Source: a virus. From it: a DNA stretch of 29,744 nucleotides. Each line of letters begins with the position of its first letter. The first letter of the stretch is position 1. This document shows, one piece after another, positions 3,053 to 27,400 of the stretch. The stretch lies in IMG/VR virus record IMGVR_UViG_3300047461_000284, positions 1 to 29,744 of that record. One strand, 5' to 3'. The position numbers were made by a program, and so were the translations under genes. The notes under the pieces are model-generated. The model ran no database searches. It worked only from the letters and a program-made list of their open reading frames with translations, and had not been told where the DNA came from.

Positions 3053-3271
3053 ATGACTTTGACTCTCGAAATACTTAACGACATAGCCGATGAGGCTCAG
3101 TGGACATTTGAAGGCGCTGAGGAAATCGGCACTAGCGACGTTAGCTGTGTGATTAATAGCGTATTGAGACAGCACGGCTTACCTACAGATGACCTTAGCG
3201 ATATATGGCGCGACCTGTGCCGCAACGCTGTCAATGAGGGCATCTGGCGTAACTCACCTGATGAGGACTAG
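3053..3271 (+). CDS. Small acidic protein (72 aa)
   Basis: Unrecognised 72-residue acidic protein with no membrane segment. It starts two bases after the previous stop with an ordinary GGAG site, so it is probably coupled to it. Its last codons (Pro-Asp-Glu-Asp-stop, CCT GAT GAG GAC TAG) are also the CUGAUGAG core and stem II of the first hammerhead ribozyme. The C-terminal residues are thus dictated by the RNA, and a terminating ribosome would cover the ribozyme core. Confidence 0.75.
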   Translation: MTLTLEILNDIADEAQWTFEGAEEIGTSDVSCVINSVLRQHGLPTDDLSDIWRDLCRNAVNEGIWRNSPDED

Positions 3272-3308
3272 CGGGGGCTAGTCGAAACACCCTGCGGGGT
3301 GTCGTGAG
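3253..3308 (+). ncRNA. Hammerhead ribozyme 1 (type I)
   Basis: Stem I CUCAC (3253-3257) pairs with GUGAG (3304-3308). Core CUGAUGA is at 3258-3264. Stem II is G3265-C3283 with ACUAG/CUAGU and one bulged base. GAAA is at 3284-3287, and stem III is CACCC-UGCG-GGGUG. The triplet GUC ends at 3303, so cleavage is predicted between 3303 and 3304, 36 nt before the ATG at 3340. The 5' part, including the core and stem II up to the stop codon, is translated as the end of the preceding gene. Confidence 0.9.
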
Positions 3309-3322
3309 ACCCACTAACTAAA

Positions 3323-3336
3323 TACCTGAGGAGGTA
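3323..3336 (+). promoter_or_regulatory. Shine-Dalgarno hairpin 1
   Basis: TACCT-GAGG-AGGTA, five pairs, directly before the ATG at 3340. After cleavage it would be the only structure in the 36-nt leader. Confidence 0.55.
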
Positions 3337-3339
3337 GTT

Positions 3340-4218
3340 ATGAGTAAGTTTGAAGATATTTTTCAGTCTGTGACTGATCGCATTATCGATGGGCTAGAGA
3401 ACGCTGAAGATTGGCGTAAGCCTTGGAAGTCATTGTTCGATGGCACTGTACCCCACAACGCATCAACAGGCAGAGCCTACAACGGCGTTAACTTCCTGAA
3501 CCTGTCATGGGCATCCAGAAAATGGGGTGCCACTGGTTGGGTTACCTACAAGCAGGCTACAGCGCTTGGCGGTAAGGTTCCCAGTAACAAGGCAGACAAC
3601 GGCGGCTGTGAGTACGTTTGGTTCATGAGCCGCAACACTTACAAGGATAAAGAGACTGGTGAAGATAAGCTTGGATTCATTAACAAATGTTTCCCAGTTT
3701 GGAACGTCAACCAGATCGAATGGGCAGAGGGTTCAAAGCCTTACAAAGAATACACCCCACCAGTGTCTGGTGCGGGTGCAGTCAATGTACTGGCAGAGAG
3801 CCTAGATGTTGATCTCCACTACGGTGGTGACACTGCCTGCTTTATCCCTTCACTTGATCAAGTTCGTATGCCGTCCGCTGACGCATTCAAGACTGCTGAG
3901 GATCACGACGCCACACTGGCTCACGAGTTGATCCACTGGACTGGTCATTCATCACGACTCAATCGCAAGATCCTGAACAGCAAAGGCGGTGAAGCCTACG
4001 CATTCGAGGAGCTTGTAGCTGAGTTAGGTGCCGCGTTTGCGGGTGCTTTACTGGGTATCCCTTATGAGGGGCTACAGCATGAGAAGTACATCGCAGGTTG
4101 GCTCAAGGCTTTGAAGTCAGACCCTAAGCATATTGTTAAGGCGGCGGCTCAAGCTTCTAAGGCTGTTACCTATCTACAAGACAATGGCTCTTTTGAGGTG
4201 TTGTCTAAGGTGGCATGA
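3340..4218 (+). CDS. ardC: ArdC-like antirestriction protein with zincin domain
   Basis: ArdC-type protein of 292 residues. The N-terminal half (FEDIFQSVTDRIIDGLE, then WRKPW, NASTGRAYNGVNFLNLSWA) is the ssDNA-binding ArdC_N/DUF1738 domain. The C-terminal half is a metallopeptidase-like domain with H195-E196-x-x-H199 in LAHELIHWTGH and a downstream acidic FEELVAEL (Glu 223/224) as likely third zinc ligand. In plasmids ArdC protects incoming single-stranded DNA from restriction. In a phage it would be an early anti-defence protein acting in the host cytoplasm. It is the only gene of the ribozyme operon whose family is clear, and it has its own ribozyme and structured ribosome site upstream. 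Family assignment is firm. Protease activity is inferred from the motif. Confidence 0.92.
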   Translation: MSKFEDIFQSVTDRIIDGLENAEDWRKPWKSLFDGTVPHNASTGRAYNGVNFLNLSWASRKWGATGWVTYKQATALGGKVPSNKADNGGCEYVWFMSRNTYKDKETGEDKLGFINKCFPVWNVNQIEWAEGSKPYKEYTPPVSGAGAVNVLAESLDVDLHYGGDTACFIPSLDQVRMPSADAFKTAEDHDATLAHELIHWTGHSSRLNRKILNSKGGEAYAFEELVAELGAAFAGALLGIPYEGLQHEKYIAGWLKALKSDPKHIVKAAAQASKAVTYLQDNGSFEVLSKVA

Positions 4219-4221
4219 GAT

Positions 4222-4248
4222 GGGGGGTGTGGGATTTTTCCCGCCCCC
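4222..4248 (+). terminator. GC-rich hairpin with T-rich tail after ardC
   Basis: GGGGG (4222-4226) pairs with CCCCC (4244-4248) and GGG (4231-4233) with CCC (4240-4242), around a T5 loop. TGAAATTTTT follows. It could be a weak terminator or attenuator between ardC and ribozyme 2, or an RNA-protecting 3' stem. A similar sequence lies at 2059-2100. Confidence 0.35.
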
Positions 4249-4257
4249 TGAAATTTT

Positions 4258-4316
4258 TCTAGCTGATGAGTACTGGGTGGTACCCAGTCGAAACACTGGT
4301 TCGCCAGTGTCCTAGA
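4258..4316 (+). ncRNA. Hammerhead ribozyme 2 (type I)
   Basis: Stem I UCUAG (4258-4262) pairs with CUAGA (4312-4316). CUGAUGA starts at 4263. Stem II is ACUGGG/CCCAGU with the same one-base bulge next to the first pair as in ribozyme 1. GAAA is followed by stem III CACUGG-UUCG-CCAGUG. GUC ends at 4311, with predicted cleavage at 4311/4312, 30 nt before the ATG at 4342. All three helices differ in sequence from ribozyme 1 yet pair fully. Confidence 0.9.
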
Positions 4317-4322
4317 TAACTA

Positions 4323-4336
4323 ATCCTGAGGAGGAT
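4323..4336 (+). promoter_or_regulatory. Shine-Dalgarno hairpin 2
   Basis: ATCCT-GAGG-AGGAT. Both outer pairs are inverted relative to hairpin 1 (U-A and A-U exchanged), a compensatory change. Confidence 0.55.
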
Positions 4337-4341
4337 CTATC

Positions 4342-4749
4342 ATGGCTACATTGCAACAGCAAAACATACACCCTGTACTGTCCCTTACTTGGGATTTATT
4401 GACAGACCCTGTGATCAACCCTACACGCAAAGCGAGACTGCGTCAGGATGCACGGCGCTATCAATACAGCGACACCTTAGCCTCTCGCGAAGAACTCAAG
4501 AGCAACCTCGACTACTACGAAACCTCTGACGGCTTTGTCTATATCGTGAATTTCTCAAGAGACTGCGACAACTGCGAGCGCCAATGGTTGAGCAAAATAC
4601 CTGCACACGTTACGGCGTACGAATTACACGTCAAGCAACTGCATGCAGGCGCTGAGGGGCTCACTTACTGCGACCTAGTCTCTGAGGCTACAGCGCGTAA
4701 GTTTGAGCCTTCATTTCGTGATCGTAACGCAGAGCGTGGCGGGTACTAA
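4342..4749 (+). CDS. Hypothetical protein (135 aa)
   Basis: Unrecognised soluble protein of 135 residues. The first 50 residues look helical (NPTRKARLRQDARRYQYSDT). A mixed section contains NFSRDCDNCERQW with one CxxC pair (Cys-Asp-Asn-Cys), too little for a zinc site by itself. The end is charged (FRDRNAERGGY). It is a stand-alone cistron with ribozymes on both sides, so it is predicted to end up as a monocistronic mRNA. Confidence 0.75.
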   Translation: MATLQQQNIHPVLSLTWDLLTDPVINPTRKARLRQDARRYQYSDTLASREELKSNLDYYETSDGFVYIVNFSRDCDNCERQWLSKIPAHVTAYELHVKQLHAGAEGLTYCDLVSEATARKFEPSFRDRNAERGGY

Positions 4750-4761
4750 CTTTATACTAAC

Positions 4762-4818
4762 TCCAACTGATGAGACCAGTTAGTTACTGGTCGAAACACC
4801 CCTAGCGGGTGTCTTGGA
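4762..4818 (+). ncRNA. Hammerhead ribozyme 3 (type I)
   Basis: Stem I UCCAA (4762-4766) pairs with UUGGA (4814-4818). CUGAUGA is at 4767-4773. Stem II is ACCAGU/ACUGGU with the G-C closing pair and no bulge. GAAA is followed by stem III CACCC/GGGUG with a five-base loop. GUC is at 4811-4813, and cleavage is predicted at 4813/4814, 33 nt before the ATG at 4847. Confidence 0.92.
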
Positions 4819-4828
4819 AAACTACTTA

Positions 4829-4840
4829 CCCTGAGGAGGG
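4829..4840 (+). promoter_or_regulatory. Shine-Dalgarno hairpin 3
   Basis: CCCT-GAGG-AGGG. The outer pair is C-G here instead of A-U or U-A, which supports the helix. Confidence 0.5.
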
Positions 4841-4846
4841 CTAACT

Positions 4847-5086
4847 ATGGATTTTGATATCTATGAAGCTTACGAAGATTTTGGTGAATTCACTGTAACG
4901 ATAGACGCCGAGTACAACCGAGCCGATGTGTGGCTAGGCGACCACTGCGTCAACCTAGAGTACGTCGCGGCAGGCATTCACAACGGCAACCCAGAAGAGG
5001 ATGTAATTACTGAGGCTGTTTGGGATACCAGTAAACATCTCGCGAAGAGAATGGAGGACTGGGCTTACAGCACTGACCTGTACTAA
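4847..5086 (+). CDS. Acidic hypothetical protein (79 aa)
   Basis: Strongly acidic protein of 79 residues (MDFDIYEAYEDFGEFTVTID opening). No recognised family, no membrane segment. Size and charge resemble early host-takeover or DNA-mimic proteins, but that is only a comparison of composition. Single cistron between ribozymes 3 and 4. Its TAA is one base before stem I of ribozyme 4. Confidence 0.75.
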   Translation: MDFDIYEAYEDFGEFTVTIDAEYNRADVWLGDHCVNLEYVAAGIHNGNPEEDVITEAVWDTSKHLAKRMEDWAYSTDLY

Positions 5087-5087
5087 T

Positions 5088-5144
5088 TCCAACTGACGAG
5101 ACCAGTTAGTTACTGGTCGAAACACCCCTCGTGGGTGTCTTGGA
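5088..5144 (+). ncRNA. Hammerhead ribozyme 4 (type I)
   Basis: Stem I UCCAA (5088-5092) pairs with UUGGA (5140-5144). The core is CUGACGA, so position 7 is C instead of U, which the hammerhead consensus CUGANGA allows. Stem II is ACCAGU/ACUGGU. Stem III is CACCC/GGGUG with a five-base loop. GUC is at 5137-5139, and cleavage is predicted at 5139/5140, 32 nt before the ATG at 5172. Nearly a duplicate of ribozyme 3. Confidence 0.9.
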
Positions 5145-5153
5145 AAACTATAA

Positions 5154-5167
5154 AACCTGAGGAGGTT
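5154..5167 (+). promoter_or_regulatory. Shine-Dalgarno hairpin 4
   Basis: AACCT-GAGG-AGGTT, five pairs, upstream of the ATG at 5172. Confidence 0.55.
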
Positions 5168-5171
5168 AATC

Positions 5172-5714
5172 ATGAGCAATTCCAAATTCCGCCTTGATGG
5201 CGATGCTGTCGCTCTACTCAAAGAGTGCAACGAACTGGCTTGGCGTTTGTCGGGTCGTGTAGAGGAACTGATAGCTGACCTGCATGGCTCTGGTGTAGCC
5301 AGTAGCACACGTCGGGAACTGGTGGTTCTGGAAGAGTACCTGAACAAGGTAATCAACCAGTCCACTGAGACCCTCGATGCTGATCGCGACCTAGACGATG
5401 AGTGCGTTTACGCAGTCTGCCCTAACCCTACCAACATCAGCGGTTACGGCGTCAAAGTAGACAAACTACTGCCTAGCAACTGGGAGATTGTCCAAATCTA
5501 CCCTGACGAGATCTACATTCGAGGTCACAACCAGTGCGTCACAGATACACAGCGTGAGTTCGAACACTATGTTCAGCCGCGCCTAGCGTCAGGCTTGATC
5601 CATTCTAAATTGTTAACCGCTGAACAGACTGAAGACTTCGTCCAAGATCAGCGTGAAAACTTACAGGATGGTTGGGCTGATGCTAACGATGAGCGGTACG
5701 CACTGCCCTACTAA
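5172..5714 (+). CDS. Hypothetical protein (180 aa)
   Basis: Unrecognised soluble protein of 180 residues. The first 70 residues are probably helical (FRLDGDAVALLKECNELAW; RRELVVLEEYLNKVI). The middle contains GYGVKVDKLLPSNWEIVQIYP followed by DEIYIRGHNQCV, which looks like beta strands, and the C-terminus is acidic. The second largest protein of the operon after ArdC. Its TAA directly abuts stem I of ribozyme 5. Confidence 0.8.
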   Translation: MSNSKFRLDGDAVALLKECNELAWRLSGRVEELIADLHGSGVASSTRRELVVLEEYLNKVINQSTETLDADRDLDDECVYAVCPNPTNISGYGVKVDKLLPSNWEIVQIYPDEIYIRGHNQCVTDTQREFEHYVQPRLASGLIHSKLLTAEQTEDFVQDQRENLQDGWADANDERYALPY

Positions 5715-5774
5715 ATCCAACTGATGAGTCCAGATGGTGACTGGACGAAACACCCTTTCGAGGGTGTCTTGGAT
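5715..5774 (+). ncRNA. Hammerhead ribozyme 5 (type I)
   Basis: Stem I AUCCAA (5715-5720) pairs with UUGGAU (5769-5774), six pairs. CUGAUGA is at 5721-5727. Stem II is UCCAG/CUGGA with the G-C closing pair. Stem III is CACCCU-UUCG-AGGGUG. GUC is at 5766-5768, and cleavage is predicted at 5768/5769, 29 nt before the ATG at 5798, the shortest leader of the set. Confidence 0.92.
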
Positions 5775-5778
5775 AACC

Positions 5779-5796
5779 AAAACCTGAGGAGGTTTT
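5779..5796 (+). promoter_or_regulatory. Shine-Dalgarno hairpin 5
   Basis: AAAACCT-GAGG-AGGTTTT, seven pairs, the longest copy, ending just before the ATG at 5798. Confidence 0.6.
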
Positions 5797-5797
5797 T

Positions 5798-6094
5798 ATG
5801 TATCAACTAGCAAAACTTGATGGGGATCGTATCCCCTGTTATCGGGGCTTTGTGCGATATGTATCTTTGCGACGAATGGGTGACTTCAGCAGTCTGAACC
5901 ACTCTAAGTTCAAAGACGACATCAGCTTTATTGTATACCGCAACTATGCAGACAGAGAGCGTGATGTAGCACTTGGCATCTACACAACCAAAGACGGCAA
6001 TCTGGTTCAGGACAAGCGTCGAACCGCACTACGCAAGATTTGGGAAGTCATGGATCGGGAGGTGAAATATGCCCCTACCTACGCCCCCCTTTGA
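5798..6094 (+). CDS. Hypothetical protein (98 aa)
   Basis: Unrecognised basic protein of 98 residues, with no motif. Starts after the longest of the ribosome-site hairpins. Its 3' end overlaps the next gene by 26 bases, with an ordinary GGGAGGTG site for that gene inside it, so the two are probably translated together from one self-cut mRNA. Confidence 0.75.
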   Translation: MYQLAKLDGDRIPCYRGFVRYVSLRRMGDFSSLNHSKFKDDISFIVYRNYADRERDVALGIYTTKDGNLVQDKRRTALRKIWEVMDREVKYAPTYAPL

Positions 6095-6284
6095 TATCAA
6101 CACCATGCTCCACCGCAAGGTGAAGTACGTCCTCCAGAAACCTGATGACCTACACGACGCCCTGCTTGAGATTGTTACGCAGGGCAGGTCGGACTGGGAC
6201 TTGCAGGAGTGGGAGGCACTGGTTGCCGATATCGAATCTTCCGACCTAACAGTCGGTGAATACATCAAGCCTTATAGAACCTGA
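6069..6284 (+). CDS. Hypothetical protein (71 aa)
   Basis: Unrecognised acidic protein of 71 residues (FDINTMLHRKVKYVLQKPDD near the start). The ATG is preceded by GGGAGGTGAAAT inside the upstream gene. Its TGA lies within the Shine-Dalgarno hairpin of the following gene. No ribozyme separates it from that gene, the only place where the hairpin is used between cistrons without one. Confidence 0.7.
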   Translation: MPLPTPPFDINTMLHRKVKYVLQKPDDLHDALLEIVTQGRSDWDLQEWEALVADIESSDLTVGEYIKPYRT

Positions 6285-6290
6285 GGAGGT
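6279..6290 (+). promoter_or_regulatory. Shine-Dalgarno hairpin 6, without ribozyme
   Basis: ACCT-GAGG-AGGT before the ATG at 6296. It contains the stop codon of the upstream gene (6282-6284), and only this internal copy lacks a hammerhead in front. Confidence 0.5.
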
Positions 6291-6295
6291 GCAAC

Positions 6296-6535
6296 ATGGC
6301 TTATTACATTAGCACGATAGACCCAGTTGATGGGTCAGTAGCGCCAATCGCAAGAGTGGTGAAGCGATTGGGTGATGCAAAGCATACGGCGGACGGTCAG
6401 GTGTATGCGGTATTCAAAAACCGCAGAGACTTCACCGAGAAGTGGCGCTACAAAACCTACGAGTCACAGGGTGGGAAGCTAAAGCCCGTGACCAGACATG
6501 ACATACCGAAACAAATCGGTGGTCTGTTCTTCTAG
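6296..6535 (+). CDS. Hypothetical basic protein (79 aa)
   Basis: Unrecognised 79-residue basic protein (ISTIDPVDGSVAPIARVVKR near the start; GGKLKPVTRHDIPKQIGGLFF at the end). No motif. Its last codons, TTC TTC TAG, supply the 5' strand of stem I of ribozyme 6, so the stop codon itself is base-paired in the folded ribozyme. Confidence 0.75.
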   Translation: MAYYISTIDPVDGSVAPIARVVKRLGDAKHTADGQVYAVFKNRRDFTEKWRYKTYESQGGKLKPVTRHDIPKQIGGLFF

Positions 6536-6589
6536 CTGACGAGCGCTGAGTGGTTCTCAGCCGAAACGCACCTTCGGGTGCGTCCTAGA
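6531..6589 (+). ncRNA. Hammerhead ribozyme 6 (type I)
   Basis: Stem I UCUAG (6531-6535) pairs with CUAGA (6585-6589). The core is CUGACGA at 6536-6542. Stem II is GCUGAG/CUCAGC plus the G-C closing pair and a one-base bulge as in ribozymes 1 and 2. Stem III is CGCACC-UUCG-GGUGCG. GUC is at 6582-6584, and cleavage is predicted at 6584/6585, 30 nt before the ATG at 6615. The stop codon of the upstream gene is in stem I. Confidence 0.9.
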
Positions 6590-6597
6590 TAACCAAT

Positions 6598-6611
6598 ATC
6601 CTGAGGAGGAT
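6598..6611 (+). promoter_or_regulatory. Shine-Dalgarno hairpin 7
   Basis: ATCCT-GAGG-AGGAT before the ATG at 6615, the same inverted outer pairs as hairpin 2. Confidence 0.55.
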
Positions 6612-6614
6612 TTT

Positions 6615-6950
6615 ATGAGTTTATATTTAGTAAAAAGTGAAGTACACGATGGCGGGCATGAATACCATGACAAGTTTATTCTGCTAGCAAGTAGCGGCGG
6701 AATATCGCTCGAACTACCTCAAAACATCGATGCAATTTTGACGGCATGGGAATTTGGATTAACTGTCAAACATGTTGAAGAGTCAGGTGATGAGGTTTGG
6801 TCTGGCTGTCGGGTGGTTTATTGCAACACCTGCGGAACCATATCAAATGACCACTACGACGTCGTTAAAAAATACCTGAACGTGATTAATCTTGAGTACA
6901 TTTTAGACGATGTCGAATATGGCGATGAGCGTGATCAGGAGGTGGCGTAA
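6615..6950 (+). CDS. Hypothetical protein (111 aa)
   Basis: Unrecognised acidic protein of 111 residues. It has one CxxC pair (YCNTCGTISNDH) that could bind a metal with other residues, but no complete zinc finger. The C-terminus is acidic (DDVEYGDERDQEV). First of three genes predicted to share one self-cut mRNA. Its TAA overlaps the ATG of the next gene (TAATG). Confidence 0.75.
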   Translation: MSLYLVKSEVHDGGHEYHDKFILLASSGGISLELPQNIDAILTAWEFGLTVKHVEESGDEVWSGCRVVYCNTCGTISNDHYDVVKKYLNVINLEYILDDVEYGDERDQEVA

Positions 6951-7117
6951 TGAATAACCCATTTGCAGATATCGCCCAGTGGGAGCGCTACTGGGACATG
7001 AGCGACCTTGAACGTGTTCGTGAAGACGAACGTGAAAAAGGTAGAAAAGAAGCGATCGAACAGAAATGGGCTGATCGCTTTAAACACGGCATTCAAGACG
7101 AATGTGACCAATACTAG
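6950..7117 (+). CDS. Small charged helical protein (55 aa)
   Basis: A 55-residue frame beginning MNNPFADIAQWERYWDMSDL and rich in Arg, Glu and Lys through the middle (ERVREDEREKGRKEAIEQKW), so probably one long helix. GATCAGGAGGTG before the ATG is a strong ribosome site, and the start overlaps the previous stop. Family unknown. Confidence 0.7.
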   Translation: MNNPFADIAQWERYWDMSDLERVREDEREKGRKEAIEQKWADRFKHGIQDECDQY

Positions 7118-7125
7118 GAGGTGCT

Positions 7126-7314
7126 ATGCCTATCTATCAAGTAACAACCAAAGAGGTCTGTATCAACACCTACGAGGTGGCGGCTAGATCCAAGGAAGAT
7201 GCTATCAGCTCTTATTATGAGCAGTTTAACTCGCGGCAAATAAAAAGCGTTAGCAGTGATGAGAGTGTTATTTCAACACTAGAAGTATTTCCAACTGATG
7301 AGTTGTCGAGGTAG
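7126..7314 (+). CDS. Hypothetical protein (62 aa)
   Basis: A 62-residue protein starting MPIYQVTTKEVCINTYEVAA followed by RSKEDAISSYYEQF. This pattern, a strand, then a V/A-x-A-x-S-x-x-E-A helix, resembles small DpnD/PcfM-type phage proteins whose function is unknown. The similarity is weak. Its last codons, CCA ACT GAT GAG through TAG, form stem I, the core and stem II of ribozyme 7. It follows an AGGAGGTG site eight bases after the previous gene. Confidence 0.7.
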   Translation: MPIYQVTTKEVCINTYEVAARSKEDAISSYYEQFNSRQIKSVSSDESVISTLEVFPTDELSR

Positions 7315-7382
7315 TCCCTCGATCGAAAGTCTAAGTACACAATAGGTAATTTTTTTTACCCTTTGTGTACTGGGCTCTTGGA
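7290..7382 (+). ncRNA. Hammerhead ribozyme 7, long stem III variant
   Basis: Stem I UCCAA (7290-7294) pairs with UUGGA (7378-7382). CUGAUGA is at 7295-7301. Stem II is UCGAGG/CCUCGA with an asymmetric internal loop near the core. GAAA is at 7325-7328. Stem III is much longer than in the other copies: GUCUA/UGGGC with G-U pairs, one bulged A, GUACACAA/UUGUGUAC, then an inner GGUAA/UUACC hairpin. The triplet is CUC (7375-7377) instead of GUC. Predicted cleavage at 7377/7378 is 31 nt before the ATG at 7409. The stop codon of the upstream gene lies in stem II loop. Confidence 0.82.
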
Positions 7383-7390
7383 TAACTAAA

Positions 7391-7406
7391 AAACCTGAGG
7401 AGGTTT
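7391..7406 (+). promoter_or_regulatory. Shine-Dalgarno hairpin 8
   Basis: AAACCT-GAGG-AGGTTT, six pairs, two bases before the ATG at 7409. Confidence 0.58.
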
Positions 7407-7408
7407 AT

Positions 7409-7876
7409 ATGTCAAACAATGCAATTTTTTTGCGTAGCAACAAGCTTAGAAATATTGGCGGGCGAACCATCGTCCTGTTCTATCACGGCTATGACTATGA
7501 AGTATCTGCCCTCAGAAGAGAAAAGCTGTATGGCAGTGAGGCTCGGTACGAGCGCATAGTCAATCAGCGTGAGGACAAAGCCATGGCACTGAGCGAAAAG
7601 CATGGTGTTGTGGACGGTGCTGTTCTAGCCAACAACTGGACAGACATCGACACGATGGGTGGTACGCCTGTCTATGAAGTAACTGGATACGACTATCGCC
7701 TGACCGAAAACCCTGCAAAAAAGGTTGTCGGTTTCGTGCGTCGTGATGGTTACCAGTACTGCTACATACCCTTCAAGGAAGCACCAGAGTCTTGGAAGCA
7801 AGAGTACCCGAGACCTGAGGAGGGTTATGTACAGAGCAAGCCCTGTACCTCGGGTACGGTAAGGAGTCTAGCATGA
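7409..7876 (+). CDS. Hypothetical protein (155 aa)
   Basis: Unrecognised protein of 155 residues with repeated aromatic strand-like stretches (VLFYHGYDYEV, VYEVTGYDYRL, FVRRDGYQYCYIPF), suggesting a beta-rich fold. The last 23 codons coincide with a strong RNA structure and a further CCTGAGGAGG sequence (7814-7823), so this C-terminus may be shaped by RNA constraints. The TGA overlaps the ATG of the zinc-ribbon gene that follows. Confidence 0.75.
   Translation: MSNNAIFLRSNKLRNIGGRTIVLFYHGYDYEVSALRREKLYGSEARYERIVNQREDKAMALSEKHGVVDGAVLANNWTDIDTMGGTPVYEVTGYDYRLTENPAKKVVGFVRRDGYQYCYIPFKEAPESWKQEYPRPEEGYVQSKPCTSGTVRSLA
7805..7857 (+). promoter_or_regulatory. Nested RNA structure containing a further SD-hairpin sequence
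   Basis: TACCCGAG (7805-7812) pairs with CTCGGGTA further on (to 7857), enclosing CCT-GAGG-AGG at 7814-7823 and an inner hairpin GTACAG/CTGTAC. The ribosome-site-like element is followed by ATG at 7827, which opens an 11-codon frame different from the host gene. It may regulate the next gene at 7873, or be a relic of a former cistron boundary. Confidence 0.4.
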
Positions 7877-8065: not shown

Positions 8066-8132
8066 GTGGGGAGTTCTCCCCTTTTAGCGACAGCGGATTG
8101 TCGCTCTCTTTTCGCCATGGATGGCTTCTTTT
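8066..8132 (+). terminator. Three tandem hairpins, each followed by T-rich sequence
   Basis: GGGGA-GTTC-TCCCC (8068-8081) followed by TTTT; AGCGACA/TGTCGCT (8086-8105) followed by CTCTTTT; GCCAT/ATGGC (8114-8125) followed by TTCTTTT. They fill the 88-base gap between two genes of the same direction. The first looks most like an intrinsic terminator. As a set they could reduce or stop read-through into the last three genes, or mark 3' ends. Confidence 0.45.
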
Positions 8133-8790: not shown

Positions 8791-9166
8791 GAAACACCCA
8801 CTTTGAATACCTGTCTGTAGTGCCAGTAATGCAGACAGGGTTCATCCTTTCACTCAAGATACAATCCAGTATCCCTTCCTTGGTAAACCAAAACTCCCCA
8901 TCCCCTAAATCGAAGAACCAATAGTCAGCCTCAGATACAGAAAGAGCGCTTGGCTTCCTATGAAAATACTCCACAACAACGTTGCCAGTCTCCATAGACA
9001 TCGGGTCGTATTTGACCTCAATTGTCTTGCCAATCTCTGGAATTTTGATGTCGAACTCAGGGTGGTTGCCAGAAGCCCTCTCAGACCTCGGGAATGCCCG
9101 TTTAAGACGCTTTAAGAGGGACTCCTCAATACTCCCACCCTTTTCGAGATCTTCCTTAAAACCCAC
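8711..9166 (-). CDS. Putative PD-(D/E)XK nuclease (151 aa)
   Basis: A 151-residue protein with EESLLKRLKRAFPRSER, then ASGNHPEFDIKIPEIGKTIEVKYDP: an acidic residue in EFDI followed by E-V-K on the next strand is the core of PD-(D/E)XK nucleases. The rest (ADYWFFDLGDGEFWF) also suits this fold. Start is a GTG overlapping the preceding stop. It is the last gene of the leftward replication operon, and its 3' end overlaps the convergent HTH gene by 80 bases. Substrate unknown, perhaps Holliday junctions or host DNA. Confidence 0.65.
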   Translation of the reverse strand: MGFKEDLEKGGSIEESLLKRLKRAFPRSERASGNHPEFDIKIPEIGKTIEVKYDPMSMETGNVVVEYFHRKPSALSVSEADYWFFDLGDGEFWFTKEGILDCILSERMNPVCITGTTDRYSKWVFLIPRQIFVRYSISQRDKRNGASSDTP

Positions 9167-16911: not shown

Positions 16912-16921
16912 GTGTTTCGAC

Positions 16922-16945
16922 ATGGAAATGGAGAGAGACCAATGA
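16922..16945 (+). CDS. Possible leader minicistron of the integrase (7 aa)
   Basis: ATG GAA ATG GAG AGA GAC CAA TGA encodes MEMERDQ, and its TGA overlaps the integrase ATG (ATGA). Its codons contain the integrase ribosome site GGAGAGAG. A translated leader could couple or repress integrase synthesis. Short enough to be chance. Confidence 0.25.
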   Translation: MEMERDQ

Positions 16946-17865
16946 GTATGACGTTTAAAGAAGTTGCTGAAGCGTACTTGGAGATGCCTAGCGCGAAGTT
17001 CAGTGAGAAGGTCGATATGACCCGAATACTGACTGAGAAGCTTATCGCCGAGTTTGGCGATACGGATATGAGGGAGTTCGAGCGTAAAGCGATCATCCTC
17101 AAATACCAAGCCAAGTTGAAGACGCAACAAAAGAAGCGTGGCGGTGAGGGATTTATATCCACGGGAACCCAGAACACCTACCTTGCGGTACTCAGAGCGA
17201 TCATTCGATTTGCTCATGATGACTTAGAGGTGATTGATCGGGTGCCCAAGATAACGCTCTATCAGAAGAACAAGCGCGAGTTTTATTTCGAGCCTGAACA
17301 GATGATCGAGTTGTGTCGGCGGTTAGATCCCCTCAGAGCCAACATGGTGAAGTTTTCCTGCAACACGGGACTACGCGCCAGTAACGTGAGACTGCTGAAG
17401 TGGGATCAGTTATCTGATGACTACAAGTGGCTTTCACTGTCTGGCTCGATCACGAAGAACGGAGAGCAGAACCAGATACCTTTGAACGCTGAGGCTCGAA
17501 AGATCCTTGGTGAGATGAGGGCACACTGCTTCTACATGCAAGATCGGTATCCGTATTTGGGTAAGCTTGAGTATGTGTTTGTTAAGGAAAGTCACAGACG
17601 GGTGGCGAACGGTAAGCCGTTCCATAAGACATCGATCTGTAACGAGTCTTGGCAGAAAGCAGTGGCGATGGCGGGACTTCCCAAGGGGACGTGCTTCCAT
17701 CATTGCCGACATACATTTGCCTCTTGGCACATGATGGCAGGCACGAGTGAAACGGCACTACAGCAGTTGGGTGGATGGCGCAGTGAGAGTTCGATGAAGC
17801 GGTACACGCATTTATCGCAAGCGCACAAAGCTAAAGCTGTCAAAGCCCTAGATGGGATGTACTAG
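16942..17865 (+). CDS. int: Tyrosine-family integrase
   Basis: Site-specific recombinase that inserts and excises the phage at the tRNA-Ser site next to it. The start at 16942 has GGAGAGAG nearby, giving 307 residues, a little shorter than lambda Int. The N-terminal third is a SAM-like core-binding domain (TFKEVAEAYLEMPSAKF). The catalytic domain has Arg145 in NTGLRASN, His253-x-x-Arg256 in FHHCRHTFASW, Trp279 in LGGWRSES and the nucleophile Tyr288 in KRYTHLS. No separate arm-binding domain of the lambda kind is obvious, although repeats that look like arm sites flank the att core. No excisionase gene was recognised. Confidence 0.93.
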   Translation: MSMTFKEVAEAYLEMPSAKFSEKVDMTRILTEKLIAEFGDTDMREFERKAIILKYQAKLKTQQKKRGGEGFISTGTQNTYLAVLRAIIRFAHDDLEVIDRVPKITLYQKNKREFYFEPEQMIELCRRLDPLRANMVKFSCNTGLRASNVRLLKWDQLSDDYKWLSLSGSITKNGEQNQIPLNAEARKILGEMRAHCFYMQDRYPYLGKLEYVFVKESHRRVANGKPFHKTSICNESWQKAVAMAGLPKGTCFHHCRHTFASWHMMAGTSETALQQLGGWRSESSMKRYTHLSQAHKAKAVKALDGMY

Positions 17866-18464: not shown

Positions 18465-21400
18465 TTATCTCCCCTTCTCAGCCTTGCGGTAAGCCTTGTT
18501 GAATATATCAAAGATCATGTTTTCGTTAGCCTCAAGCTCATCCAACATATCTCTCTTCTTCTGCTCACCGTTTAGCTGACCTGAGTAATCTTGTTTCTCA
18601 ATAAGTTTTCGCGACTTGCCGATAGATTTCAGATCTTTATTGGCTATCTGCCAAAACCCCTTACCATTATACTTTGGCTCTAGAAGCGGAAGGAACGACT
18701 GGTACTCGGTCTGCAATAACTTGACCTCTTTCATGTCCTTAGCTTCTTTGAAGCGCTGAACAATCTTTCTTGTCTCTTCCCAATTAGCGTAGAACTCAAA
18801 TCGGTCTTCATAATCTGAGGGTGACTCAAAGAAACTACCCACGATTGGTAGGTCTTGATTGCGGAACTCTTCATCAGCAAGACCTCTACTTACAACGTCA
18901 GTCGTCTGACTCACGAACCGTCCAACACCACCCAAGAAGTACTCATAGATGTACTGCATCTTGTCTGGGTTCAAGGCAATGTAGCCATCCTCATACTTAT
19001 CACCACCTGTCAGGTCGTTCAGGAACTGAGCGGGAACACTGAACATCTTGTCTGTTGATCGACGCTCGTTATATGCCGCTGATCGCTCAATGAAGAGAGG
19101 GTTCTGCTCGATATAAATATCACTGCCAAAGAAGTTCTTATTAGCCATCAGATCAAGGTGAAGCTCTAGCAAATCTGGATAGAAGCCTCGTGCCGCATCC
19201 TCCCACGAATCACCTGATGATGGTGCAACTGGCACAAAGTTAAGTAGGAAGTTTTCCCAGAGGTTAAGTCCTGCCTCTTTAAAGTCCTTTGTACCCATTG
19301 CCACTTCGGTTGATAGGCGACCAATGTTGGTAAAGAAGTTGTAGCCATAAGGTGCCTGTAACGCAAAGCCCTCGTCTGGCGAATACATAAACAATAGGGC
19401 ACGGTTCTTAGCGTGTTCTGGTAGGTCTGCGTACTTCAACTCTTCATCATCATCCTCTTCTGAGGTCAGGATGTTAAACAGTGTGATCGCACTACCAAGA
19501 GCAACCAATCCCAAAGCAGTTTTCCTTGCTCCCGTTGTTCTCTTGTCACCTTTACTCCCATCATCCTGCAAAGTCTGTAGGAAGTTCATGTTACCCTGTA
19601 CAGCGGCGTTGAAGAACAGGTACCCCGCACCTACTACCGCCGAATCCTCACCCTTACGATTAAAGTTTACAGTCGAGTCTTTTGTTAGCGTAGCCGCTGT
19701 ATCTTTCGGCACACCTATCTTTCTTGCCTCAACATAGAGCGCGAATCGTATGCTGTTCTCCATGGTGACGTTGAAGTCCTCAACAACTTTACCAATGGCT
19801 TTCAGCGCATCGCGAGTGTATCCACGCTTGAGTTTATTCTTGAGGATGCGAAGTTGCTCATCGGCATCCCGCACCAACATCATGCCTGTCGGTGCGCCAA
19901 CCTCAACATATTCTTTGACATAGGTGTCGTACTCGTTGCCATCACGCATAGGCTTGCCACGGTAGTGACGCCAAAGCGATCTCATCGCGGGGAAGTAACC
20001 CTGTGCCGTTTTGCTAACAAGGTTTTGCCCGAGAACACGACTACCCTTCTTATCCATCTCACCTATGGCATACATCATGCCCGTCGCCACATCACGCATC
20101 GGGTTCACAAGACCCCATGTTGGGTTGTAGTTGATTAGCATGTTTCGTCTGAAGGTCTGGAATCGAGTAGCCAGTGTCAGCACCTTGCCCATGCTTTCAT
20201 TAGCACGAGACAGCATCGGAACACTCATGTTCTGTAGCGCGTGGTTTAGCTTGTCACTAGCAAACTCAATGAAGAAGGTCTGACCATCTCTCTTCACCTC
20301 AACGTATCTGGGGTCACCGTTAGGGCGTATATCCAGAGACATCTCTCTAAGGTCTTGAGGTGTTAACTCATCCGACTCCTTCATAGGACGGAACTTGGTA
20401 TTGTAGATGGTGTAGCTGTCGCTGTTACCTAACTCACTGAGAAGATCTAATAAGGTGTTGGCGTATTCATTTTTTCTCGCCCGAATAAGTTTTTTCTGGA
20501 CATCCTCAAATGATGTAAGCAGTGGGCTGAATGGCAATGTCTTACGACCTCTCGCCTTCATGCTCTCCTTACCTACAACTGAGAAGCCACGCGACCTAGC
20601 ATCACGCACATAAGTCTCACCGTCATCCTGTGCGGCAAATCCTTTTAGCGGAACATAGAATCTAAAGCGCTCTTCCCAGTCAGCACGGGTATCTTCATCA
20701 AGCAATCCTGATGTCACCATGCGCTCACGGTACTCATCGAGCATGTCGTAAACCTTTGATGCAATGCGCTCAAGGTCAGCTTGAGTACCCTCTTGTTCTG
20801 CCGTTCTCAAAACTTTGGCGGCTTCTATATAAGTCATACCAGAGCCAGTGTCTTGGAATGCTAGGGGTAGCTCATCGTATTCCTTGAGCTTCGCTTCTAG
20901 GTTTGCAATCTGCACGGAGTGATCAACGTCAATCTCTTCTTTGAGCTTCTTAATCTGATTCTCAACACGCTGAATATTACGGGCTCTCTGATCCTTAACC
21001 TTTTCTGCAATCGCATCGTTACGCTCTGCCGCATGTTTAGCGATAAGATAAATGTCTACCGCCTCAACAGTGTAGCCAAGCTCTGCTATCAGATCGCCAA
21101 TCGGGTCTATGTGACGCTCATGGAAATCATCAATATCATTCTGGACACGTCCATGTGAAAGGTTCTCCTGATCTCTTGGAGATATAGCCGCAGGTAAGCG
21201 ACCCATCTCAAGATACTCTGCCGCCTGCTCTTCAAAGTCCTGAAGAACTGCATAGCGATCTACCAAGCTTGCGTAGATCTTCTTATCCCTAAGGCGTCTA
21301 GCAAGATCGGCTTGTGAATCTATTTCATCGTTGTAAGAGAACTTGTTAGTTGATGGGGTGCCATCATCTAGCTTGTTCAACTCTTTGTTCATCTGCTTCT

Positions 21401-24400
21401 TCTTGATGAACGCGAAGTCTTCTACGTCAGCGTACTCAGCATCCTTAACAATGACCAAGTTACCTACCTGAATCGCTTCACTGAAACTTTCCACAGGTTG
21501 CTGTTTCTCTAGGTCGTAGTAGAAAGAATGACGCTCTGGGTTCATTGATACCTGAGTCCACTCTGGATCATTAATAAACTTTTTAAAGTCAGCGCGATTA
21601 TCTTCATGAGTTAACGCTGTACCGTCTTCTTTCTGCCCTACATAATCACCTTCCATTGTGGCGATGGTGTTCTTGTCTGCACCCAGAGCAATCTTGACTG
21701 CTCCCTTTTCTGGTACAGCGAACAAGCCATTTTTAAGTCGAATGGTTGGGTAGTAACCAAGACGCTTACCTGCTGAACCTGCTTTAGCGTTAGGTCTAGA
21801 TGCGTGAACAGTAACTATGTCTGCTCGCTCATCTTTGGTTAGCGTTTTACTATTGTATGAAGGGATGTCTAAGCGAGAGCCGTAACGTACACCATGCTCT
21901 AAAACGTCCGCTTTCCAGTACGTTTCTTTGGTTGGTGTATTAGGCTTCTCCCTATTTGTTTTCTTCAGAGCATTAATGAACTTTTCTTCTGATGGTAGTT
22001 CAGGAACCATGTCTGCTGTCATAGGTGCAACAAAGCGACCCTGATCTTCAAAGACCTGATTAAGTTCTTCTGCTGTTATATCTCTATCTATACGAGACTG
22101 TACCGCATCCTTCATTGTTTGATTGATTCGGTTTTGTTCGGGGCGGATTCTTTCTTCCCCGCCTCGCTGAATTTTTACAGCGTCGTCATAGCTGTCTGTT
22201 ACAACACCGTCTACCCTAGAATACTGTCCAAAGTACTCTGGGCTGTGTCGCATAAACACAACGTCTGGCTCACCGTTCTTATACATGGCGAACGTCTTCT
22301 TATCCCAGTCGTCTGGAGCAAACTCGTCATTCCACTTAACGCGAGCTACCGCCTCAAAACCGAGATCCTGATATATAGAAGGTAAGACTGTGTCAAAGGC
22401 ATCAAGATACTTAGCGCCTTCTTGTACAGCTAGAGAACCTAATGCGTATGTAACGTTTGGATTTGTACCTTCGTTAAATAAGGAAACAATTTCGTTGCCA
22501 TCCTTGAGCGCCAAACCTGCCGTCCCGTCATCGGTGACATACATGGTCATGCCTTGATAATCTGACTCAGGGTAAACGTACACCGACGCACCAAAGCGAG
22601 AAGACTCTTTAGCCGCTTTGATTTTATCGCTAAAGTATTTTGCCGTTTCTGGTGTACTTTCTAACTCTAGAACCGTTCGTGAATAGCTGTCTACTGATGC
22701 TAGATCCTGAGCTACTGATGGTTCTAGATCTCGCTTGTATGCATTAAGCGCTTGACCGTCTAGGTCAACTTGAGCATATCCACTAGGTCTTGCTCTGAAG
22801 CGTCTGGGTAGATCGGCTTGAGTTCTTCCACCTTCTCCCTGAACTCCTTCGGAACCACGAAGCCTGTTGTAGGTTGCGATCCTTCTTCGCTGTCCGCTGA
22901 TATCGGTTGAGTCGTAGTCAGTAGCTCTTTCAGGAGCATATTCTCTTTCAACTGCCTTTCTTTCAGCGTTAGATTCGACGAGGGCGTCGAGCTTTTGTCT
23001 GTCAACTTGTTCTGCTTCATACCAAGGAGATCCTTTATCGTAGTCGGTAACCTTAAAACCTTTAGGTATTACACCGTTCTTAGACTTTTTAACTTCTTTT
23101 AAGAAGTCGCCAAATTGTTTAGTGCTAAACTTGTAAACATCACCGTTAGACTTTGAGTATAGTATGTACGGGTTTGCATCCTCATCTCTAGCATAGATAG
23201 CACCAAACCTATAAAGGTCACCCTTACCTTCTGGAGCGCCTAAGAAAGCATAAGGGCTATCTTCACCCTTAGCATCTTTCTCAAGACCCTGCATTGTCGG
23301 GTGAGCAACTATCTGCCCTGAATTTAATACCCAACTTTCCCAGTGATAGCGACCAACAGAAGCATCTTGCTCTCTGCCTAGCCCTTTATATAGGTCTGTA
23401 ATTTTTGTTTGAAGAGCATTCTCCAAAGCTTCATATCTTGCTAGTCCATGAAAGCCACTAAACTCATCAGCAATGTCATCATAAATTAACTTGCCGTAAC
23501 GCCCAGAATCCCACATAGAGTTAAGCTGTATGCGGTCTAAGATAACCACGTCATCTCTACCCATCATCAGCATCATGAAAGAGAATACTTTGTTGTCTAT
23601 TCCAGAGCCCTGCACTTGAGCTTGGAACTGACGGCGTACCTCAAAAGACGGAATGCTTGAATCTGCTAGCGTGTTATGTAGGTTTTGAAGCTTAGATACA
23701 CCGTCAACCTGTTCGCTCATCTTCATTAGAAGCGGAAAGAAATCATTGGCATTCGAGGTTGCGCTCTTACCAAAGGATCCCTCGGGTATAGCGGTCTTAA
23801 CTTCAGCTATCCATTTATCTTTGTCATTAGCGTCGATGGTTCCATCTAGAGTTTTCTGAATCAGATCCTGAGTCATCTCAGTACCTGTTACAAGATCAAC
23901 GTATGCCGCCTCTTGAGAGCTAGCAGTTAGTCTTCTAGACAGCAATCCCCACAACAATAACTTAGCTGTTGTATTAGGAGTTGCAACGCCATTAGCGTAT
24001 AGCTCACCCATTCTTTTAGCAGTATCTAAGCCATTCTTGGCGGCTAGTCTTTGCTCTGTAGTTAACTGAGAGTGACGGTCAACCCATCCATCCATGTTAT
24101 TGAACAGATTGATCAGCGCGTATGGGGGCGCTAGATGGGTATTCTGACCTGTAAGAGATCTTTCGAATGCTCGCCACGCATCAGGGCTTGCTAGCGCATC
24201 AGGATTGTTTTTGATGATCTCGTCAAGCTTGGCAATGTTTGCTTCAGCGTTCTTGGCATTAAGCTTCTTAACGGGAACTTGCTTCTTATCCGAAACATCT
24301 CCCTTGGAATCTTCTAATAAATACTCTGCGCCTTTCTTAATGAAGCCCATATCATCAAGATCAGAAAGGTCTTCATCAGTTAAGCCAGTATCGTCGTCTA

Positions 24401-27400
24401 TATCACCAAGCTCTTGCTCTACTAACTTGGCTTCTTGTTCTTGTTCGATCTCGTTTAGGATGTCTTGTTGAATAAACTTGTCGCCATTCATGACAACTAA
24501 GTCTTCTGCCTCTACATCTTTATCAAGCAATTGTTCTTTAAGATTTTCAAATTGGTTGTCTTCTAGACGCTTAAACTTCTTACGAAGAGTTTTCTCTGTA
24601 GCACCCTCTTTGTCAGCAATAAACGACCACGCATCAGTGACAGTGTCTTTGCTTACTATAGGATCTAATGGGGTGTTGTATGATTTTTCTCCCGCCTCAA
24701 TTAATTTTGCGCGGTGATCCACGATAGCTTGTATCGCATCATTCTTGGTTTCGCCTAGATACTCGATCTTACGATCTAGCGACTCTAACTCTGTAGGGTC
24801 GCCAACCTCTGCGGCATAGTCATCGTAATAAACTCGGTATCTGTCACCATCAGGGAAGGAAACAATGTACTCCCCTGTGTCTTCGTAGTTTTCAGCCTTC
24901 TTGAATCGTGGCTTTTTGCTGTGCGGTTTGAGGATTACTTCTGTGCGTGGCTCTTGATCTACGACAGATTCTTGTACATCTGATCGTTCAGGTTCCCCAC
25001 TCTCGTCTTGCTCCGCTCTTTCCACTGGCGTATCGGCTCGTTCTTGGACAATGCTTCCTTCGCCATCTGATCCAGTTGATTCAGGTTGTACGACCTGCTC
25101 GCCTCTGGGCTCGGGCGGTGCCCGAACTTGTCCTGATATGCCAGAAGGTTGGGAGGTTTCTTGGGTGACTGGACTACTCGACTGTTCATCTTGTACCTCT
25201 GCTTGTGCAGTCTGTAAGTTATTGTCTCTTATACCTTTTATGTAATTATACGCTTTTGGAGCGAACTCTTGTAGCTGTTTCGGGTTGCTGTGAAATAGCG
25301 CTCCAAGCTGTGCAAATACTTCTTGTCTGTAGCGATCGCTTACTTTGTCGTTAGCCAACTCGGCATCATTAATATCATCTTGTAGATCGTTGAACGGATA
25401 GTCGAAGCGATTACCCACTGGGGTGCCCTTCTCCCAGTTATCAAAGATCTCGGTCATGATATCGCCCATCACTACCGAAGGCTCTTTGGCGTCCTCGTCT
25501 ACACGAATGCCTAGTTGGTCGTCAGCATCTGACAAGCCATAGGCGTAGTCCGCCGCATGGTAAACCTCATGGGTCATCGTCCACGCAAGCTCACTCAGAT
25601 CGTCTGGGTTAGACATAGAGCCAATGATTAGCTTGTCGTTGATCGATATGCCGCGTGACTTAAATCCTGTTAAGGCGGGGGCATCTACCTCAGTATCAGT
25701 GTGTACAAATACACCCGATACAGCGTCAACAAATTTAGTAGGCACACCGTTGGCGGACAGATCAGCCATAACACCGCCAACTGTATTGGTAACGTCGCCT
25801 GCTTTGGTTCCATACGCCTCTTCAACTGTTGGAAGACTCTTGCCTTTAGGCTTGTCGTTGGTTCCTATCTTGAGTGTTTCGTTTCTATCAAAGACTCGGT
25901 CAATGTCGTCTTGATCAATTGGCTCAACCACAACATCAGTATTGTTTGGGTCTAGGGCTTCAGGAGTTTGCGAGACTCTTGATACCTCTAAAAGTTGATC
26001 CTGTATAGGGGTAGACGCATCCGTTAAATCGCCATCCCATTTATGTTCATGACCATATTCCCTTGTACCCTGTGGAACTTCTCTGCTTGTTACAGCAGGG
26101 GTCTCTACCACAGGCTCAACAGCTTCAGTAGCCTCTGTAACAGGCTCCTGAGCGGGCGTAGCGTCTTCTGTATAGGTGATATTAACGTCGTCACCCTCAC
26201 CAAGGACTACGCTTAACTTGGTGGGGTCATAATTTTCCCCGAACTGATTTTTTAGCTGTTCAGTCGCTTGATCAATATTCTTTTGCTGTACGTCATTAGC
26301 AACCAACTCAGGAGTAATGACATCAGTGGTCTGCCCTTCTGAGTTAACAATTCTTATGGAGTTTGGATCTCGATACTTGTTGTATGTATCAGCGATGTAC
26401 TGTCGAACATCTGCGTCTTCTGGAGTAACGTCCCGAAGGTTATCCATATCGGGTCTGTTATTTTGATATCCACCTTGCAACGCTTTAGCTGTTGATGATG
26501 CCGTGCCAATAGTCGTGCCACCGATCGTACCCTGCACAAAGCTATTAAGCAGTTGACTTTGCTTTTGTGAGTTACTGATGTAATCGAAGTACTCGCGCTG
26601 ATCATTCTCACTAAAGTTGTTATTGACGTAAGAGATGGTGTTGTCTTCGATGATGTATTGAAGCGCTTCCGTAGCACCCTCTAAACCACCGACTTGAAAT
26701 ACATCTTTAAGGAATGCGCCAACCCACGGTTCATTAACACCGTCCTGAATGAACTCAATAACTTCGTCACGTTGATTCTTGGGAATCATGTCGCCGAGAA
26801 CCTTGAATGCAGGCAGAGCGTTCAGGGCTGACTGTGCTGTCCCAGAGGATAGTGAGATAAACGGAGCCTCAACACCTGTATCCTCTAATGTCTGAGCAAA
26901 CTGATTGCCCGACATTGTTCCTGTGCCATATAAAAATGCACCTGCTGTTCCACCTTTCACAGAGAGTTGTTTGGTCTTAGCCTTTACAAATTGATCTTTG
27001 ACGGCTCCTGCAATCTGATCAGCCTGAGCTTGATCCATACCCCGATCTAGAAGTTCTTTTCTACCCTGCTCAACATACTTATCTGCAAGCTTTTCGATTG
27101 ATTCTTTAGCGCCTTTTTTAACTACAGCAGAACCAAGTCCACCTGTTGCAACCATACCTGCTAGATCTGGAATTAAGGTGCCTAAAGTGTGGGAAGCATA
27201 AGCACCGAAATCAGCAACACTATCCACATCTTCGATCTTCATTACGTCGCCTTGGAACTGCTCTGCCTCTGCCATTTTCTTCTGGTAGTAAGCCATTCCA
27301 TCTTCGACCCATTCCTCTTGACCTGTTGCAGAGCCTACAAGTGCTTTGAGTCCGCCACCCATAGCTTGGGTCTGTCTAACGCCCTGTTCAAGACCACGTT

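Follow-up and report, generated by a model that had tools for sequence, protein, structure and literature searches.

Background

What purpose is served by a series of hammerhead ribozymes (HHRs) placed one after another between the genes of a phage? The question is raised by the IMG/VR virus record IMGVR_UViG_3300047461_000284, positions 1 to 29,744 of which (29,744 bases, hereafter referred to as the window) carry seven complete type I HHRs on the + strand between 3253 and 7382, one per intergenic gap in seven gaps. The role of the bacterial and phage hammerheads is called open by reviews (PMC6155905, PMC10085705). The organisation of the locus suggests that it is probably a self-processing phage operon, in which one transcript would be cut co-transcriptionally into short messenger RNAs (mRNAs) with fixed leaders bearing a 5'-hydroxyl (5'-OH). 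An array of this length, whose geometry is fixed and whose genes are unrelated, opens the processing hypothesis to direct testing and provides statistics that the earlier small clusters did not give.

Identification of the hammerhead ribozymes in the window

The seven elements are listed below with their predicted cuts and new 5' ends, the distances in nucleotides (nt) from the cut to the start codon, and the open reading frames (ORFs) that they follow and lead.

3253-3308, + strand: HHR1, type I; cut after C3303, new 5' end 3304; stem I CUCAC/GUGAG; loop II GGG pairs with the tail CCC; overlaps the stop and 3' end of ORF 3053-3271; leads the ArdC gene 3340-4218 (36 nt)
4258-4316, + strand: HHR2, type I; cut after C4311, new 5' end 4312; stem I UCUAG/CUAGA; begins 39 nt beyond the upstream stop; leads ORF 4342-4749 (30 nt)
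4762-4818, + strand: HHR3, type I; cut after C4813, new 5' end 4814; stem I UCCAA/UUGGA; pseudoknot UAGUU/AACUA; begins 12 nt beyond the upstream stop; leads ORF 4847-5086 (33 nt)
5087-5145, + strand: HHR4, type I; cut after C5139, new 5' end 5140; stem I UCCAA/UUGGA; immediately 3' of the stop codon 5084-5086; leads ORF 5172-5714 (32 nt)
5715-5774, + strand: HHR5, type I; cut after C5768, new 5' end 5769; stem I UCCAA/UUGGA; pseudoknot UGGU/ACCA; immediately 3' of the stop codon 5712-5714; leads ORF 5798-6094 (29 nt)
6531-6589, + strand: HHR6, type I; cut after C6584, new 5' end 6585; stem I UCUAG/CUAGA, containing the stop codon UAG of ORF 6296-6535; pseudoknot UGGUU/AACCA; leads ORF 6615-6950 (30 nt)
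7290-7382, + strand: HHR7, type I; cut after C7377, new 5' end 7378; stem I UCCAA/UUGGA; unusually long stem III; pseudoknot UAGU/ACUA; contains the stop of ORF 7126-7314; leads ORF 7409-7876 (31 nt)

A descriptor demanding the core CUGANGA...GAA A...UH plus three helices matched these seven and no others on both strands of the window, and 100 Markov shuffles gave 4 matches altogether (about 0.04 per window). The catalytic core (CUGANGA ... GAAA ... UH) is intact and unmutated in all seven, and three helices surround it with stem I open, as in type I. The covariance model R2, built on 48 viral HHRs with the window excluded, also recovered all seven (E-values 7.6e-13 to 1.6e-4; next best match 0.17). 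The seven complete HHRs described in the original prediction are thus confirmed to the base by the descriptor and an independent model, the three stem I types are those that it named, and its cut sites, 29-36 nt ahead of a start codon, are reproduced exactly.

The Rfam hammerhead model, proposed at the same time as a check, was less successful. Although RF00163 (Hammerhead_1) has the core, the three stems and the cleavage site in common with the window HHRs, only HHR5 (at 5715) scored above its gathering threshold (36.7 versus 34); HHR3 (match at 4761) fell below it with 26.9 and the other five were undetected at E<=1. As other models score all seven, RF00163 is a poor model for this group. 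With five of the seven undetected and one under the gathering score, current Rfam-based annotation overlooks most members of such arrays.

Genes bracketed by ribozymes that are able to ligate in principle might also be excised and religated into circular or spliced RNAs. Such products were sought and none found by Perreault et al. 2011 (PMC3088659). Further, the stem I arms of neighbours in the window often differ (HHR1/2, 2/3, 5/6 and 6/7), and the RNA ends would therefore not match, so that this alternative is extremely unlikely.

Placement of the hammerheads across viral loci

Relatives were collected by three pattern scans of viral contigs, a protein-based scan for relatives of ArdC, and model searches. 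The raw DNA-pattern scan of viral contigs carries an expected load of chance matches, and the statistics were therefore limited to the loci confirmed by a model or the descriptor and to the scans in which stem I was fixed. These searches, of a kind that had been suggested for related phages, gave a total of 264 distinct HHRs from viral contigs, representing 136 non-redundant loci.

The common order is stop codon, HHR, about 30 nt, start codon. A Shine-Dalgarno sequence, a start codon and an ORF lie 12-58 nt past the cut in 233 of the 262 distinct HHRs (quartiles 27, 30 and 35), as compared to 9.7% at random positions, and the same downstream layout holds for 123/132 members of a set chosen on stem I and core letters only. 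The stop of the upstream ORF lies at -40..+25 of the HHR in 229/241 cases, against 23% at random. Adjacent HHRs are co-oriented in all 114 pairs, with a median spacing of 572 nt. At least two HHRs are present in 60 of the 136 loci and at least three in 24, while two loci carry nine each (L279:6692-10865 and L045:8911-13431); these are unrelated viral contigs with nearly one gene per ribozyme, and in L279 the ribozymes at 8822 and 10092 are identical in sequence. The downstream genes (n=233) belong to 146 unrelated families, mostly small and of unknown function with occasional ArdC, RusA and replication genes; the HHR is thus tied to the intercistronic position and not to a particular gene.

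The stereotyped abutment or overlap with the upstream stop, together with the hairpin that would terminate the upstream product, raises the question of whether the HHRs provide the upstream gene with a stable 3' end rather than the downstream gene with a leader. The spacing to the downstream start is, however, as stereotyped as that to the upstream stop. A 3'-end role is moreover compatible with a leader role and already included in the reading as a self-processing operon; as a replacement for it, it is very unlikely.

Conservation of the fold

Compensatory changes in the stems, and hence selection on the fold, were part of the original prediction and are borne out in two sets. In A3, for which the DNA pattern fixed stem I and the core only and left stems II and III free, the latter are paired in 97-98% of cells, with a covariation score of 0.477 versus 0.159 shuffled; since they pair although they lie outside the pattern, the conservation of the helices is not purely a sampling effect. 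In A2, 97.5% of cells are paired (covariation 0.746 versus 0.179 shuffled). Covariation among the relatives extends to all three stems.

A further element of the fold, which the original prediction overlooked along with the ribosome-binding-site hairpin described below and the near-zero gap to the upstream stop codon, is a pseudoknot in which loop II pairs with the nucleotides directly 3' of stem I. The partners co-vary (UAGUU/AACUA, UGGU/ACCA, UGGCU/AGCCA, UUGGC/GCCAA), and pairing was found in 63/94 cases versus 23 permuted (maximum 34) and, in a second set, in 109/132 versus 55.5 permuted (maximum 71), the permutations preserving column make-up and not relatedness. In the window, it comprises 4-5 Watson-Crick base pairs in five HHRs, three G-C pairs in HHR1 and a set with one G-U pair in HHR2. 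The covarying pseudoknot provides the tertiary contact between loop II and stem I needed for fast cleavage, and such pseudoknots are known to accelerate cleavage (Perreault et al. 2011, PMC3088659). It was also considered whether, after cleavage, the 3' strand of stem I pairs with the leader to form a new 5' hairpin (UUGG-auaa-CCAA). HHR5 could form it, but the CUAG class and the AAAACUA leaders could not, and the idea was rejected because the letters of the leader covary with those of loop II.

The core is perfect in 96 of 115 distinct relatives, the remainder being mostly known variants or misaligned. The variants UUGAUAA/UUGACAA (L127:10904, L132:3039, L096:7839 and 6653) retain the C3-G8 tertiary pair as U3-A8, L133:1374 has U-G at this position, and others carry U4C or have an additional A following A6. 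These largely match the variants of Perreault et al. 2011 (PMC3088659), in which the U3-A8 class is active and that with A after A6 (A6a) is slow.

Cleavage could alternatively act as a regulatory off-switch, or as a switch controlled by a ligand or salt, so that in certain conditions cutting would reduce the expression of the genes on either side. Perreault et al. 2011 (PMC3088659) suggested salt-dependent control for the variants that lie before a start codon in haloviruses. The stem III loops are, however, short tetraloops in most members with no conserved aptamer-like insert, the leader left after the cut retains a complete ribosome-binding site, and an element that is uniform ahead of 146 families of genes speaks against the control of individual genes. 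This alternative is quite unlikely.

Shine-Dalgarno hairpin in the leaders

Each of the seven cuts is followed by a hairpin with the Shine-Dalgarno GAGG as its tetraloop:

3323-3336, + strand: ribosome-binding-site hairpin ACCU-GAGG-AGGU, in the ArdC leader
4324-4337, + strand: ribosome-binding-site hairpin AUCCU-GAGG-AGGAU
4829-4840, + strand: ribosome-binding-site hairpin CCCU-GAGG-AGGG
5155-5168, + strand: ribosome-binding-site hairpin AACCU-GAGG-AGGUU
5780-5796, + strand: ribosome-binding-site hairpin AAACCU-GAGG-AGGUUU
6599-6612, + strand: ribosome-binding-site hairpin AUCCU-GAGG-AGGAU
7391-7406, + strand: ribosome-binding-site hairpin AAACCU-GAGG-AGGUUU

Of 57 distinct leaders, 52 have a Watson-Crick pair on the outer side of the invariant CC/GG, with all four types (G-C, A-U, U-A, C-G) represented, and the contiguous complementarity is 1.65 versus 0.49 permuted (maximum 0.91 in 2000 permutations). 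In an L279 leader (AAUCU-GAGG-AGAUU), U-A replaces a C-G of the stem, by which the hairpin is kept and the Shine-Dalgarno weakened. The hairpin was observed at 52/58 HHR-led genes and at 47/124 of the remaining genes in these regions, a small number of which do have an HHR that escaped detection, and in only 46/132 of the stem-I-selected set. The latter count and its occurrence at HHR-free genes led to its rejection as a universal component of the module; it is a feature of the phage clade of the window.

Three more CCUGAGGAGG leaders (2861-2872, 6278-6289 and 7812-7823) precede hammerhead-free genes in the window; the Shine-Dalgarno hairpin is a wider leader style of the region.

Proposed processing of the transcript

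The genes of the array and its putative end are as follows:

3340-4218, + strand: ArdC-like anti-restriction protein, 292 amino acids (PF08401 + PF18818, phrog_7245), cistron between HHR1 and HHR2
4342-7876, + strand: small cistrons of unknown function between and after HHR2-HHR7, namely 4342-4749, 4847-5086, 5172-5714, 5798-6094, 6069-6284, 6296-6535, 6615-6950, 6950-7117, 7126-7314 and 7409-7876
8086-8105, + strand: terminator-like hairpin past the last array gene, a consensus match only and a possible end of the transcription unit

Promoter-like sites inside the array are not above the chance level and no terminator-like site was found on the + strand in its intercistronic gaps; a single transcript carrying the seven HHRs is plausible. 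Between the ArdC stop and HHR2, a strong G/C-rich hairpin (GGGGGUGUGGG AUUUUU CCCGCCCCC) occupies 4222-4250, where relatives carry a gene for 51 amino acids; it is possibly a partial terminator or a remnant.

In the self-processing operon, one transcript would span 3.2-8.1 kb, and each intercistronic segment, on leaving the polymerase, would fold into a pseudoknot-braced type I hammerhead and cut after C17. The downstream cistron, or a group of two or three, would thereby become an mRNA that begins with a 5'-OH and has a constant leader some 30 nt long; in the clade of the window, this leader would contain a short hairpin with the Shine-Dalgarno GAGG for its tetraloop. The upstream mRNA would end in the stem III hairpin and a one-nucleotide tail with a 2',3'-cyclic phosphate, predicted to be a poor substrate for 3' exonucleases. 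RNase E prefers a 5'-monophosphate, and the 5'-OH would slow one route of decay. The likely gain would be uniform, context-independent translation of the accessory or early genes and a longer lifetime of their messages. That each cistron would be stable and translated independently, as proposed in the original prediction, would be expected from established RNA biology and from the RiboJ precedent (PMC6206723, PMC7536230). With translation and lifetime independent of the neighbouring gene, gene cassettes would be exchangeable.

The idea of intercistronic scissors freeing successive mRNAs is well supported by the placement statistics of the 264 distinct HHRs, the cleavage itself being predicted from sequence. 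Several observations weigh against this reading. Nearest-neighbour folding in a context of +-60 nt gives stem I a probability of only 0-48%, a calculation that ignores the pseudoknot and co-transcriptional folding. Ribosomes terminating on the upstream gene would sit over stem I and might hold back its folding. The Shine-Dalgarno hairpin, as counted above, is not universal and occurs at genes without an HHR.

On a wider scale, it may be, with chances somewhat short of even, that many uncultivated phages use a unit of stop, fast hammerhead, leader some 30 nt long (in which the Shine-Dalgarno often forms the loop of a hairpin) and gene, repeated up to nine times, to produce insulated single-gene mRNAs and ribozyme-bounded exchangeable cassettes. 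Such a standard unit, if true, would settle what phage hammerheads do.

Evolution and distribution of the arrays

Close relatives conserve the order of HHRs and genes, and more distant ones have other genes between the HHRs. Locus L124 is missing a single unit of HHR and gene that L122, L123 and the window all have, its stop-to-start gap being 96 versus 431 nt; the comparison of L124:11577-11674 with L123:3909-4341 indicates precise loss (or gain) of the unit with the junction within the HHR region. Certain gene families occur both with and without a preceding HHR. The evolution of the arrays fits ribozyme-bounded cassettes.

It may be asked on these grounds whether the HHRs are mainly homology blocks or cassette boundaries, i.e. 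repeats of about 60 nt for recombinational gain and loss of genes with cleavage being secondary. The absence of exactly one unit from L124, gene content that varies freely between the HHRs of relatives, and unrelated loci that share the architecture and carry different genes are in its favour. Recombination requires identity, however, whereas the stems change by compensatory substitution that preserves catalysis over sequence, and homology blocks predict neither a start codon at a distance of 30 nt nor the pseudoknot. This explanation is considered unlikely.

Among isolated phages, there was no nucleotide match to the window array or to those of L279 and L204; L045 matches one gene of the Curvibacter phage P26059A, a phage devoid of HHRs. 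Records with ArdC relatives gave no match to the covariance model R1, and a prophage survey of genome contigs with the HHR+CTGAGGAGG pattern gave 36 matches with no convincing HHR among them. Class-wide searches of 754 genomes found no HHR, with only about 15 candidates scored per search, and are uninformative.

Comparison with known systems

A serial array freeing successive mRNAs had been put forward as undescribed. This claim to novelty does not hold, as Perreault et al. 2011 (PMC3088659) had already reported clustered prophage HHRs that flank single genes or blocks and proposed processing into single-gene mRNAs; activity was shown for three tandem arrangements in vitro and, in E. coli, for one that lies beside ardA. 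The likeness to the window is considerable, with several HHRs around genes or short blocks of phage operons of variable identity, an anti-restriction gene beside an HHR (ardA there, ardC led by HHR1 here), a pseudoknot between the stem II loop and the stem I side, and the U3-A8 and A6a core variants. The tested tandem sets were, however, small (a triple in Agrobacterium) and of types I, II and III, whereas the window has seven of type I in one operon, with a quantified rule of stop, HHR, 30 nt and start and a covarying Shine-Dalgarno hairpin; the hairpin is absent from that paper, in which the term Shine-Dalgarno does not occur. New here, as judged on the open-licence literature, are the array length (seven; nine elsewhere), the numerical placement rule drawn from 264 HHRs, and the hairpin that covaries around the Shine-Dalgarno.

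A functional precedent, though not proof, is RiboJ, a hammerhead and hairpin in the leader that cleaves 84-94% in E. coli, one failed variant excepted (PMC7536230), and raises protein 2-10x and mRNA about 2x (PMC6206723). In both, a hammerhead in the 5' leader removes itself, or is predicted to, and frees the leader from upstream sequence, and the order of HHR cut, hairpin, ribosome-binding site and start codon found in RiboJ is seen in the window, a functional likeness that implies no common descent. RiboJ is synthetic, present once per transcript and based on the sTRSV ribozyme, with a hairpin of 23 nt to which a stabilising effect on ribozyme folding is ascribed; the window array is natural, serial and intercistronic, and its hairpin loop is the Shine-Dalgarno itself. 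The comparison suggests that RiboJ-like insulation arose in nature. The selective RNA processing and stabilisation operons of Clostridium (PMC4423207) similarly obtain segment-specific stability from intercistronic cuts and terminal hairpins; their intergenic processing sites with stabilising stem-loops are not described as ribozymes in its abstract, whereas the cut in the window would be encoded by the RNA.

Genome context

Other genes of the window encode a terminase small subunit, RusA, a Sak-like annealing protein, an integrase, a primase-helicase and a YqaJ nuclease. A single ORF of 3050 amino acids on the - strand (18465-27617) takes up nearly one third of the record, and its gene has no nucleotide match in the phage collection. 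Just past the integrase gene (16912-17865), the segment 17985-18013 (+ strand) is the reverse complement of a transfer RNA (tRNA) 3' end with T arm, acceptor and CCA; ARAGORN finds no full tRNA there and Rfam gives a weak match to transfer-messenger RNA/plastid. The presence of this attP-like tRNA-end site after an integrase thus indicates a temperate phage in its free (not integrated) arrangement.

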